Source of the DNA: Pseudomarimonas salicorniae
Lineage (GTDB): Bacteria > Pseudomonadota > Gammaproteobacteria > Xanthomonadales > Xanthomonadaceae
NCBI RefSeq assembly: GCF_023156535.1
Contig: NZ_JALNMH010000002.1
Coordinates: 62,001-126,000 of the forward strand
Length of the DNA: 64,000 nt
Direction of reading: 5' to 3'
The position numbers and the translations under genes are program-made. Each line of letters begins with the position of its first letter. Position 1 is the first letter of the stretch. Below the pieces are notes generated by a model. It was not told the origin of the DNA. It saw only the letters and a program-made list of their open reading frames with translations, and ran no database searches. Of the stretch, positions 37,460 to 53,961 are shown piece by piece.

Positions 37460-38690
37460 GCGCGAAGCGCCAATCCGCATTGCGCTGATCGCCGGCGAAG
37501 CCTCCGGCGATCTGCTGGGCGCCGACCTTGCCACGGGACTGAGGCGTCTGCTGCCCTCGGTGGAACTGGTAGGCGTGGCCGGGCCGGCCATGCGCTCGGC
37601 CGGCGTCGAGGCCTGGGTCGACTGCGAGGAGCTGGCGGTGATGGGCCTGGCCGAGGTGCTCCGCCACCTGCCGCGGCTGCTGCGCCTGCGCCGCCGGCTG
37701 CGTCAGCGTCTGCTCGACTGGAAGCCCGACCTCGTGGTCGGCATCGACGCCCCGGACTTCAATCTGGGCCTCGAGCGCTGGCTCAAGCAGCGCGGCGTGG
37801 CCACCGCCCACTACGTCAGCCCCTCGGTATGGGCCTGGCGCGAGGGCCGGGTGGAGAAGATCGGTGCCAGCTGCGATCGCGTGCTCTGCCTGTTCCCGAT
37901 GGAGCCCGACATCTACGCCCGCCACGCGATCGACGCGCGCTTCGTCGGCCACCCCCTCGCTTCGCGCTTCGCGATGGCGCCCGACCGGGCCGCTGCACGC
38001 CGCGCGCTGGGTCTGGCGCCCGACTCGCGCTGGCTGGCCGTGCTGCCGGGCAGCCGCCGCGGCGAGATCGGCCGCCTCAGCCGCCCCTTCCTCGAGGCTG
38101 CTGCCCTGTTCCGTCGCCAGGCACCCGAGTTGGGCGTGCTGGTGCCGATGACCGGCCCGCGCACCCGCGACGCCTTTGAACAGGCCCTGCGCGAAACCCT
38201 GTCTTCGGCGCCGCGCGAGGAGCGACCGGATCGCCCCTCGCAGGCCGAGCTGTGGTCGCTGCAGCGCAGCCTGCGTATCGTCGAGGGCCGCTCGCAGGGC
38301 GTGCTGGAGGCCGCCGAACTGGTCCTGCTCGCCTCGGGCACGGCGGCGCTCGAGGCGATGCTGGCCAAGCAGCCGATGGTCGTCGGCTACCGCATCGCGG
38401 CCCTGACGCATGCCCTGGTCATGGGCCTCGGGATGATGCGCACGACCCACTACAGCCTGCCCAACATCCTCGCCGGCCGCGAACTGGTGGCCGAACGCAT
38501 GCAGGGCGACTGCACCCCGTCACGACTGGCCGAAGCCCTGCTTGCCCTGCACAGCGATCCGACCCGGCGCGCCGCGCTCGATCCCGAGTTCCGGCGCCTG
38601 CACGAGGCCCTGCGCGCGCCCGAGCCGGACGCCGCGGCCCGCGCCCTGCTGGACCCCCTGCCGACCGGCACATGCGCTACGTCGCCCTGA
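37425..38690 (+). CDS. lpxB: LpxB, lipid A disaccharide synthase
   Basis: A 421-residue GT-B glycosyltransferase joining UDP-diacylglucosamine to lipid X. Recognisable are [56 protein letters not shown] and LPGSRRGEI. The start is TTG with AGGAG (37413-37417) seven bases upstream. The first 16 residues ([16 protein letters not shown]) come from a dispersed repeat and precede the family's normal start at about [11 protein letters not shown]. There is no in-frame ATG between. It overlaps rnhB by 19 bases. Confidence 0.94.
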
Positions 38691-43883: not shown

Positions 43884-43980
43884 TGTGGGAGCGCCCTTGG
43901 GCGCGACCGCGGAGTCCCGCTCTGGCCACGGTCTGTGGTGAGTCCGTGGCGCTGCGGTCGCGCCCAAGGGCGCTCTCACA
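43884..43980. repeat. Family B REP doublet, intact copy B1
   Basis: A 97-bp element: TGTGGGAGCGCCCTTGGGCG and its inverted arm enclose a spacer containing CCGCTCTGGCCACGG. Copy B2 at 46169-46265 has the same length in the opposite orientation. Confidence 0.85.
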
Positions 43981-44073
43981 GCCGGGTCTCGTTGAATTGC
44001 GGGAATGGGGTCGAAGGGGGCGGGATTCAGACGCGCCGGAAGGGCGCAAACCGGACCTGGCAGCGCCCTTGCG

Positions 44074-44137
44074 TGTAGGAGCCAGCTTGCTGGCGATCGT
44101 CCCGTCCGGGACGCCTGTCGCCAGCAAGCTGGCTCCT
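44074..44137. repeat. Family A REP doublet A2, split by the IS110 element
   Basis: The left 64 bases of the element, from TGTAGGAGCCAGCTTGCTGG to GGCTCCT, end at the IS110 left junction. The missing end, ACA, and the conserved tail ATTCGGG...GGAAGGTCTTC resume at 45404 beyond the IS110 right end. Confidence 0.9.
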
Positions 44138-44139
44138 TG

Positions 44140-44145
44140 TACCTT
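44140..44145 (+). promoter_or_regulatory. Left-end -10-like TACCTT of a circle-junction promoter
   Basis: TACCTT lies two bases inside the left end. It comes to 17 bases from the TTGACA at 45383-45388 only when the two ends are joined around one CT core. The match to TATAAT is weak (three of six). Confidence 0.5.
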
Positions 44146-44151
44146 GGATCC

Positions 44152-44312
44152 GGCTTCAGATTCGCCTATACCACCGGTCGATTTCCGGGGAAGCCGCTTG
44201 CTCCTTGGGGCAGCTTTGGCTGACCTCGTATGTAGAGCGGCTCCCCGCCCCATTTGCAGAGCACGAAGAGTGTCACGGGCCAAGAGCCGGCGTAACAAGG
44301 CTGTGCCGCAAG
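44152..44312 (+). ncRNA. Predicted IS110 bridge RNA
   Basis: The left-end sequence folds by hand into two bulged hairpins. First loop: stem 44187-44197 with 44237-44246; inner hairpin 44208-44214 with 44219-44225; between them, 44197-44205 (CTTGCTCCT) matches the left target 44129-44137 in eight of nine bases, and 44226-44235 is complementary to the right target 45402-45411 in nine of ten, one being a G-U pair. Second loop: stems 44254-44257/44308-44311 and 44261-44264/44303-44306; 44267-44274 (AGAGTGTC) equals the right element end 45395-45402, and 44295-44299 complements CTTGT at the left end. Strand choice follows the IS621 rule. The transcript ends are guesses. Confidence 0.7.
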
Positions 44313-44381
44313 GGATTCGGGGTCGGGGAACCTGGGAGTCAGTCTACCCATGCATCTCTGAGTGACAAGGAGGTATCCCTG

Positions 44382-45386
44382 ATGGATCAATCGCCGCGCA
44401 GCGCTTTTCTCTCGTTGGATATCGGCGCTGCCGAGCATGCTTTTTGTTTCGAGGACGGCAATACCAGCAAGGCTGGAAAGGTCGACAGCGCCCCCGAGGA
44501 AGTGCGCCGATTCATCGCTTCCAAGGTGCGAAAGGACAGGCCCCTTCGCGTCATCATGGAGGCGACTGGCATCTACTATCTGGATGCTGCGGTGATCGCC
44601 GCCGAGCTGGGCGCCGAGGTGTTCGTGGTCAACCCAAAGGCCGCCCACAACTTCGCCAAGGCCCTGCAGCAGCGCAGCAAGACCGATGCACTGGACGCCG
44701 CCATGCTGCTGGAATTCGTCAAGCGCATGCCGCTCAAGCGCTGGACTCCGCCGAGCCAAAGTCACTTGGCGCTGCGCTACTACGGCCGCTATCTCACCCA
44801 GCTCACCGAGGACTGTACGGCGGCCAAGAATCGGCTGCACGCGCTGTCCAGCACACAGGCCTGTCCCAAGGCACTGCGTACCGACATGCAGCGCGCTATC
44901 GCCGGCTTGGAACGGCGGATCGACCGCCTCCGAGGCGAGGCGGTGGAGCTGATCCGCGAGGATCCCGACCTGCAGTCCATGTTCGAGGCACTGATCTCGA
45001 TGGTTGGGGTCGCAGAAACCAGCGCCGTCTCCCTGCTCGGTGAACTGGCCGTCCTGCCCCGCGATATGAGCGCCCGGGCCTGCGTATGCCATGCCGGCCT
45101 GGATGTCCGCGTATTCGAGTCAGGGTCCAGCCTGGCCAAGGCGCCGCGCATCACGCGCCACGGCAACAAGTATCTGCGCCGGGCACTGTTCCACCCTGCA
45201 CTGGTTGCCGGCCGGCACGACCCCTACGCCCGCGCGTTCAAGGAGCGCTTGATCGCCCGCGGGAAAAAGAAGATGCAGGCAAACGTGGCGGTCATGAGAA
45301 AGCTGCTCACCGCTGCCTGGACCCTCGTCAAAAGCCCAGAAAAGTACGACGGGAGCAGGCTGTTCCCGAGCCAAGAAATCGCTTGA
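44382..45386 (+). CDS. IS110-family transposase (DEDD recombinase)
   Basis: A 334-residue RNA-guided-type recombinase. The RuvC-like N-terminal domain (DEDD_Tnp_IS110) shows D13 (LSLDIGAAEH), E60 (VIMEATGIYY), D102 and D105 (SKTDALDAAML). The C-terminal Tnp_20 domain has SMVGVAETSAVSLLGEL and the serine region FESGSSLAKAPRITRHGNKYLRR; S247 of ESG is the likely catalytic serine. AAGGAGGT (44367-44374), a perfect ribosome binding site, lies seven bases before the ATG. The frame is open further upstream but overlaps the bridge RNA region. No frameshift or stop is seen, so it is probably active. Confidence 0.95.
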   Translation: MDQSPRSAFLSLDIGAAEHAFCFEDGNTSKAGKVDSAPEEVRRFIASKVRKDRPLRVIMEATGIYYLDAAVIAAELGAEVFVVNPKAAHNFAKALQQRSKTDALDAAMLLEFVKRMPLKRWTPPSQSHLALRYYGRYLTQLTEDCTAAKNRLHALSSTQACPKALRTDMQRAIAGLERRIDRLRGEAVELIREDPDLQSMFEALISMVGVAETSAVSLLGELAVLPRDMSARACVCHAGLDVRVFESGSSLAKAPRITRHGNKYLRRALFHPALVAGRHDPYARAFKERLIARGKKKMQANVAVMRKLLTAAWTLVKSPEKYDGSRLFPSQEIA

Positions 45387-45388
45387 CA
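45383..45388 (+). promoter_or_regulatory. Right-end consensus -35 (TTGACA) of a circle-junction promoter
   Basis: A perfect TTGACA overlaps the transposase stop codon and points out of the element. In the integrated state the -10 position is ATTCGG of the REP tail, which is poor. In a circle the left end supplies TACCTT at 17 bases. Such junction promoters are known for IS110 elements. Confidence 0.6.
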
Positions 45389-45468
45389 GGGAACAGAGTG
45401 TCTACATTCGGGTTCTGCGGAAGGTCTTCTTTGCGCCTGTATCCGCCCGACAACCCGACCCGGGTCGC

Positions 45469-46137: not shown

Positions 46138-46168
46138 AGGCCTTCGCCGGCCCCCAACGGTGCCCGAC

Positions 46169-46265
46169 TGTGGGAGCGCCCTTGGGCGCGACCGCTGCGC
46201 CACGGATTCACCCCAGACCGCTGCCAGAGCGGAACTCCGCGGTCGCGCCCAAGGGCGTTCCCACA
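46169..46265. repeat. Family B REP doublet, copy B2
   Basis: Ninety-seven bases from TGTGGGAGCGCCCTTGGGCG to GGGCGTTCCCACA. The spacer is the reverse complement of that in B1, so this copy is inverted. Confidence 0.85.
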
Positions 46266-46323
46266 ATTCGACTGCGGCAAGGCCTGCGTTGCGGCGCAAA
46301 CCGAACCTTGCAGCGCCGTTGCT

Positions 46324-46388
46324 GTAGGAGCCAGCTTGCTGGCGATCGTCCCGTCCGTGGCGCCTATCGCCAGCAAGCTGGCTCCTAC
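46324..46388. repeat. Family A REP doublet, intact copy A3
   Basis: TGTAGGAGCCAGCTTGCTGG to GGCTCCTAC, followed by GTTCGGCTTTCGCGGAAGGT and CCTCTTCGCGCCC. This downstream tail matches the one beyond the IS110 right end and confirms where that element is inserted. Confidence 0.88.
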
Positions 46389-53885: not shown

Positions 53886-53961
53886 TGGTGGGTCGTATTG
53901 GATTCGAACCAATGACCTACGGATTAAAAGTCCGCTGCTCTACCAACTGAGCTAACGACCC
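53886..53961 (-). tRNA. tRNA-Lys (anticodon UUU)
   Basis: Seventy-six bases including encoded CCA. The minus-strand acceptor GGGTCGT pairs with ACGACCC; D arm GCTCAGTTGGTAGAGC; anticodon stem GCGGA/TCCGT with loop CTTTTAA; T arm with GGTTCGAATCC. The anticodon TTT reads AAA and AAG. Confidence 0.97.

Follow-up and report, generated by a model that had tools for sequence, protein, structure and literature searches.

The window analysed here, a stretch of 64,000 nucleotides of Pseudomarimonas salicorniae (contig NZ_JALNMH010000002.1, positions 62,001 to 126,000), carries on its forward strand an insertion sequence of the IS110 family, for which we predict a bispecific bridge RNA encoded in its left end. 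The element had been placed at 44138-45401 (coordinates are those of the window) in an initial annotation made from the letters alone, and the comparison of its junctions with those of other copies in the host genome and of relatives bears these limits out: a CT dinucleotide, the core, flanks it on both sides, at 44136-44137 and at 45402-45403. Between the two cores lie a non-coding left end (LE) of 244 bases (44138-44381), the recombinase gene (44382-45386), preceded by GGAGG at 44369-44373, which resembles a ribosome-binding site, and a short right end (RE) of 15 bases (45387-45401). When the flanks are joined with a single CT, the resulting sequence, ..CTGGCTC-CT-ACATTCGGG.., is the end of a repetitive extragenic palindromic (REP) sequence, of which many empty copies exist in the host. 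The REP palindrome lies to the left of the insertion (44075-44137), with arms at 44075-44097 and 44119-44137, and includes the left target CTGGCTC (44129-44135); on the other side, the right copy of the core together with the right target reads CTACATTCGGG (45402-45412).

The gene encodes a protein of 334 amino acids that matches Pfam families PF01548 (E 1e-22) and PF02371 (E 6.6e-16), both above the cut-off, and that aligns with the structure chains of the recombinases of IS621 (8wt6, E 1.6e-35) and ISCro4 (9t56, E 7e-38). It combines a RuvC-like DEDD domain with a Tnp domain bearing the conserved serine, as is characteristic of the IS110 family, and residues D13, E60, D102, D105 and S247 are all present. 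Among 21 aligned proteins, E60, D102 and D105 are found in all 21, and D13 and S247 in 20 each, with one gap in each case. As read from the alignment, S247 would be the counterpart of S241 of IS621, assuming that the PDB chain has two extra residues, an assumption that fits E60. The element had also been called intact, and this holds for the reading frame and for the five catalytic residues. The position of the RNA upstream of the gene, with an LE of 244 and an RE of 15 bases, assigns the element to the IS110 group and not to IS1111; the longest exact inverted match between the last 60 bases of each end is of 7 bases and lies away from the tips.

A region homologous to the RNA of related elements was located in the LE at 44185-44344, preceded by a variable 5' part. 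A covariance model trained on 22 relatives, from which the element of the window and its closest relative (L022) had been held out, matched this region with 109.9 bits (E 1.9e-27), the sole match up to E 10 in the window, and detected L022 at E 2.9e-31. Among 22 loci scanned with the covariance model, L023 and L024 gave weak matches (E about 1e-4) and L025 and L026 nothing below E 0.1. The distant loci L023-L035, L059-L063, L065-L072, L074-L079 and L080 gave no match with nhmmer, in a scan that did not include L081 and L083-L087. In Rfam, nothing inside the element exceeded the gathering score and no bridge RNA family was found up to E 10; the four matches below the gathering score around the element are none of them a bridge RNA.

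Through all four guide regions the LE of the window can be aligned with those of 19 relatives, and the consensus obtained with RNAalifold from 20 left ends shows a pair of stem-loops whose internal loops hold one pair of guides each, the conserved arrangement expected of a bridge RNA. The target-binding loop (44187-44246) has an outer stem formed by 44187-44195 with 44239-44246 and an inner one formed by 44207-44214 with 44219-44227; the outer stem, for which 11 base pairs had been claimed, has 8 in the consensus. In the donor-binding loop (44255-44310), the outer stem joins 44255-44265 with 44302-44310 and the inner one lies within 44277-44289. For the 32 pairs so named, 95.3% of the cells are paired against 84.4% after shuffling. 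Both-sided changes are found in 19 of the 32, where the shuffles average 9.8, and the covariation score reaches 0.344, compared with 0.148 for shuffles and 0.05-0.10 for slid controls; none of 500 shuffles was as high in any of these three values. The structure and the pair counts were drawn from one alignment, which somewhat favours the structure.

In the target loop, the left target guide CTTGCTCCT (44197-44205) has the same sense as the left target CTGGCTCCT and agrees with it at 8 of 9 bases, just as had been annotated. The right target guide is ATGTAG (44230-44235), the complement of CTACAT. Over 44225-44235 as a whole, the comparison with CTACATTCGGG gives nine Watson-Crick pairs and one wobble pair in 11 positions, where 44225-44229 are a partial match without support from covariation and 44225-44227 sit inside the inner stem of the loop. 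A guide extended past CTACAT was considered and rejected: no covariation is seen there across relatives and three of the letters belong to the stem, so that these further matches are probably due to chance. Of the earlier count of 9 complementary bases in 10 (44226-44235), then, the pairing with CTACAT stands, and the figure itself does not, being eight Watson-Crick pairs and one wobble pair that include stem letters.

In the donor loop, the left donor guide is AAGAGTGTC (44266-44274); its part AGAGTGTC (44267-44274) equals, at 8 of 8 bases and in agreement with the initial annotation, the left donor AGAGTGT at the right end of the element (45395-45401) plus the C of the core. The right donor guide GCGTAACAAG (44290-44299) pairs with CTTGTAC, which comprises the core and the start of the LE; the complementarity of ACAAG (44295-44299) to CTTGT noticed before is correct and extends to seven pairs with one bulged base. 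This last pairing was read by eye from the alignment and was left out of the permutation test described below. Each strand of the target is thereby matched by one guide of the target loop, and each end of the element by one guide of the donor loop, as in a bridge RNA. By analogy with the structure described for IS621 (PMC11208158), two candidate handshake bases can be proposed: A at 44236 in the target loop, with the final T of the left donor as its presumed partner, and G at 44300 in the donor loop, whose partner would be the C that precedes the target core.

The expectation by chance was evaluated with 3000 dinucleotide shuffles of the 244-nucleotide LE, using targets of 9, 11, 11 and 8 letters. 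Matches as good as the observed ones appeared in 4.8% of the shuffles for the left target guide, 3.0% for the right target guide, 20% for the left donor guide and 60% for the right donor guide, whereas all four together were found in one of the 3000 and all four in order in none. A single match is not compelling alone; the full set is. Since each match taken alone arises in 3-60% of the shuffles, independent support is needed.

This support comes from the relatives of the element. The search in the family (198 genomes) showed, besides the host, one genome with a close relative, L022, at 61% identity; in the class (369 genomes) there were 6 others at E 1e-50 and in the order (299 genomes) 4 others at E 1e-60. 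Scanning genome contigs yielded 52 loci, among which the nearer ones from Gammaproteobacteria are 40-47% identical; L040-L046 are relatives from Pseudomonas. In 28 elements, the agreement of the guides with their own flanks and ends was compared with that obtained when flanks and ends were reassigned among elements (27 elements for the left target, 26 for the right target and 26 for the left donor, L058 and L064 being without right end and L132 without left flank). L050, L057 and L080, whose left ends are cut or absent, were excluded, as was L128; four of the five copies of genome G442 were used, and L120, L129 and L130, apparently the same records as L056, L053 and L052, were counted once. 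The left target guide matched its own targets at 143.8 of 189 letters against 93.3 (standard deviation, sd, 6.5) after reassignment, with the signal at positions 3 to 6 of nine, weak at position 2 (p 0.04) and absent at position 1, while position 7 is invariant. For the right target the values were 100.5 of 182 against 86.2 (sd 3.8), the signal reaching CTACAT only, and for the left donor 205 of 234 against 186.7 (sd 2.4). In the window, no other target suits the right target guide as well as its own (6 of 7 letters; the next, 5), and the right end of the element agrees with the left donor guide at 8 of 9 letters, as does that of one other element.

To allow for the common history of the relatives, a further test was made on 10 disjoint closest pairs (20 elements). 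In the left target, a change of the target accompanied 15 of 19 changed guide letters and 8 of 31 unchanged ones (Fisher p 3e-4); in the right target, 8 of 9 and 4 of 23 (p 4e-4); in the left donor, a change of the end accompanied 3 of 4 changed guide letters and none of 44 unchanged ones (p 2e-4). In these tests letters are taken as independent, the commonest letter of several copies is used, the positions were chosen after the permutation and some of the pairs are distant. The pairing of elements and the protein alignment cover 21 of the 28 elements, no protein having been found for L022, L056, L073, G442, L118, L124 and L132. The guide-like segments are therefore not only conserved in place, as expected by the initial annotation, but covary with targets and ends.

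Particular cases illustrate this behavior. Between L044 and the P. siliginis element a single G to A change is seen both in guide and in target; three of the four P. siliginis copies have the G target and the fourth differs. The letters TAAGTATC in L052, and GGAGTATC in L048, L049 and L056, appear alike in donor guide and right end. The distant relative L123 inserts at CTAA and not at CTAC, and its guide has TTAG in place of GTAG, at a position that is invariant in the other guides compared. In one genome (G336), L118 and L124 have near-identical left ends and different right guides (TTCCGTAG and TCCCGTAG), that of L124 matching its right flank CTACGGGA at 8 of 8. A mismatch of one left donor letter occurs in L053, L121, L122, L123 and L124. 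As regards the right donor, most of the family has CTTGTATG with GCAU-N-ACAAG and one bulged base, L121 and the G643 element lacking the bulge, and in L022 and L036 a G of the guide stands opposite T as a wobble. In the window CTTGTAC faces GCGU-A-ACAAG, so that, relative to the family, a T to C change in the LE is matched by an A to G change in the guide; this apparently compensatory change, a single event read by eye, supports the pairing and does not prove it. As a separate observation, the right end of L073 (Pseudomonas sp. Root562) is seemingly repeated in tandem, with two AGAGTAT-CTACAGG ends 103 bases apart.

The copies in the host draft genome (32 contigs) give access to the sites of insertion. 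Among 197 candidates 40 were scored, so the numbers of copies are bounds: at least one full copy, that of the window, together with 19 partial ones, some 100-130 bases long and all situated at the end of a contig; the remaining one of the 21 matches, of 31 bases, lies inside the recombinase gene. Partial copies at contig ends are what is expected from the short-read assembly of a repeat, and with 19 contig ends inside it the element is therefore a main cause of assembly breaks. Of these copies (L002-L020), 18 are 100% identical to the ends in the window and the other is 99% identical, which suggests a recent spread. Including the window, 9 left and 12 right junctions could be read. In all 9 cases the left flank has a REP arm and closes with CTGGCTCCT, which agrees with the REP target already proposed for the element; all 12 right flanks begin with CTACA, and 9 of them have CTACATTCGGG. 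The host has 143 unoccupied CTGGCTCCTACAT sites and 249 unoccupied CTGGCTCCTACA[ACG] sites. CTACAT is the form of 9 of the 12 ends in use and of 143 of the 392 empty ones, a preference (Fisher p 0.009) that would be expected from a right guide AUGUAG. The letter after CTACA is often not the same at both ends of a REP unit (among the places listed, 100 of the 249 and 100 of the 143), and the preference could hence also be due to some other property of the T end.

The observations on the anatomy of the element, the homology and structure of its RNA, the covariation of the guides, the insertion at REP ends and the catalytic residues are best explained by an insertion sequence of the IS110 group that almost certainly works as IS621 does, by means of a bridge RNA. 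The element would leave as a circle, whose joined ends would form a promoter (TTGACA, 17 bases, TACCTT) transcribing the left end into the bridge RNA. The target loop would pair with both strands of the REP end around the CT core (..CTGGCTC-CT-ACAT..) and the donor loop with the joined ends of the element (AGAGTGT-CT-TGTAC); the RNA-bound DEDD/serine recombinase would then exchange strands at the CT core, with insertion at one end of the REP in a fixed orientation. The proposal that this is a bridge-RNA recombinase programmed for a REP sequence, put forward in the initial annotation, is thus supported by the covariation, the RNA homology and the junctions at REP ends.

Several results weigh against this explanation. 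At all 9 left junctions the host REP departs from the left guide at a single position, the third of the left target, with G in the host and U in the guide, and in the comparison among elements this guide fits its own target at 6 of 7, tied by the targets of three other elements. The form TTGCTCCTACA, which fits the guide at that letter, is found at one host site (G000:C23:300878-300888), which is unoccupied. It is not followed by T, because all 143 TNGCTCCTACAT sites are CTGGCTCCTACAT, and the 392 empty CTGGCTCCTACA sites carry the same mismatch seen at the 9 left junctions. Three of the 12 right junctions lack the T read by the right guide. Among the relatives, the right target guides of L039, L048, L082 and the G442 element miss, in part before the end of CTACAT, and the left target fits poorly in L064 and L123. 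In the structure, one of five measures, the number of further pair types, was no higher than after shuffling (34 against 33.0; 210 of 500), and the fold of the single sequence was not unusually stable (z -0.62, with 52 of 200 shuffles as good, and z -1.04, with 28 of 200). Lone-sequence folding was dropped as evidence, its z values not being significant. Hence, of the stable fold with two loops that was initially expected, the loops stand by consensus and compensatory changes, and the unusual stability does not.

The mismatch at every left junction also admits the idea of an element between targets, in a clade that records re-aiming base by base with tolerance at the third position as the bridge. 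Single guide letters do change with single target letters, as in the G to A change that separates L044 from the P. siliginis element and in the right guides of L118 and L124, and we regard this idea as possible though rather unlikely.

It might instead be supposed that the recombinase alone, or the REP hairpin, selects the site, and that the guide-like segments reflect coincidence or shared ancestry. REP arms are indeed present at 9 of 9 left junctions, the individual guide matches are within chance, and for the REP-seeking elements IS1397 and ISKpn1 of the IS3 family the transposases themselves were considered to determine target specificity, as described in PMC1525189. However, the covariation of guides with targets, both across relatives and in the disjoint closest pairs, argues strongly against a choice by protein or hairpin only, and relatives with quite different flanks (L053, CGCATCCT; L039, CATGACCT) have matching guides; we therefore give this explanation very little credit. 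Just as improbable is that the RNA of the left end acts as an antisense or leader regulator of the recombinase and not as a guide: this would leave its covariation with flanking host DNA unexplained, and the two roles can coexist. It could also be argued that a once functional bridge-RNA element is now dead, its ends and RNA persisting only by recency, considering that only one copy is assembled in full, the others being visible at their ends alone. Against this are the at least 12 right junctions, the near-complete identity of the 19 partial copies to the ends in the window, the open frame and the five catalytic residues, and we consider it improbable, if somewhat less so than the two preceding explanations.

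The promoter of the bridge RNA would be completed in the excised circle, where the -35-like TTGACA (45383-45388), which overlaps the stop codon, would be 17 bases from the weak -10-like TACCTT (44140-44145; 3 of 6 letters). With this spacing imposed, TTG at -35 and TATGTT, TATGAT or TACCTT at -10 are found in 17 of 17 elements, and in a free search with spacings of 15-19 the junction site ranked best in 16 of 17 (the exception being L039), both counts being without a shuffle control. The -10-like box overlaps the right donor, and its conservation may partly stem from donor pairing. In the host copy L002 (1501-1506) the left end is CTTGTACA instead of CTTGTACC, a difference outside the paired part of the donor; TGTACA in place of TGTACC brings its -10-like box nearer to the consensus.

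Other features were observed around the element and in the host. A second type of palindromic repeat (GGGAGCGCCCTTGGGCGCGACC and its complement) was seen by eye at about 43885-43985, just left of the REP, and translations hint at similar repeat words near 46150-46330. The tRNA-Lys at 53886-53961 is the only tRNA of the window detected by both ARAGORN and Rfam; ARAGORN also gives a tRNA-Ser (tga) at 37740-37820 on the reverse strand, where the Rfam tRNA family has no match at the gathering score. The host has other IS110-type genes at G000:C10:48057-48476 and G000:C19:9518-11727, and the bridge RNA model gave no match at these two, with 150 of 1707 candidates scored.

The novelty here lies in the member itself, with its REP and its clade, the mechanism having been published in 2024; the known mechanism is unchanged by this element. 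It offers a clean bridge-RNA recombinase that is probably active and whose natural target is revealed by at least 12 insertions in the host, in a small clade (28 elements compared) that lets guide and target changes be followed. It is also a candidate orthologue for work on bridge recombination, distinct from IS621 and ISCro4, and gives a first sign that, inside a single genome, the choice among REP ends can be predicted from the right guide. No publication on this element was found among the titles and abstract openings listed from the open-licence literature.

REP-specific IS110 elements had been described by 2006 (PMC1525189). Among them, ISPpu10 of Pseudomonas putida has a REP association ratio of 7/7 in that report and shares with the present element, as far as its description there goes, the specificity for REPs and the two-base repeats at the junction; a bridge RNA has been predicted for it (PMC11208160). 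The seekRNA elements ISPa11 and ISEc21 likewise combine a DEDD transposase with an RNA from a non-coding region that reads the target, and ISPa11 targets REPs (PMC11187229); ISPa11 belongs to the IS1111 type, its RNA lying downstream of the gene and its target-matching regions following an order reversed with respect to the IS110 type, whereas here the RNA lies upstream. ISCro4 (PDB 9t56), compared by protein alignment only, has a homologous recombinase. The closest parallel is IS621, for which the bispecific bridge-RNA mechanism was described by Durrant in 2024 (PMC11208160). According to that account, both elements have in common an RNA encoded in the LE with the target loop followed by the donor loop, the order of the guides (left target, right target, left donor, right donor) on the same strands, the CT core, the REP target, the DEDD plus serine recombinase and the discontiguous pairing of the right donor. 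A promoter across the junction of IS110 circles, IS621 included, is reported in the same source, and the promoter-like boxes found here may act in the same way. The two elements differ in the letters of REP and guides, the recombinases being related at the level given above and the RNAs compared by layout only.
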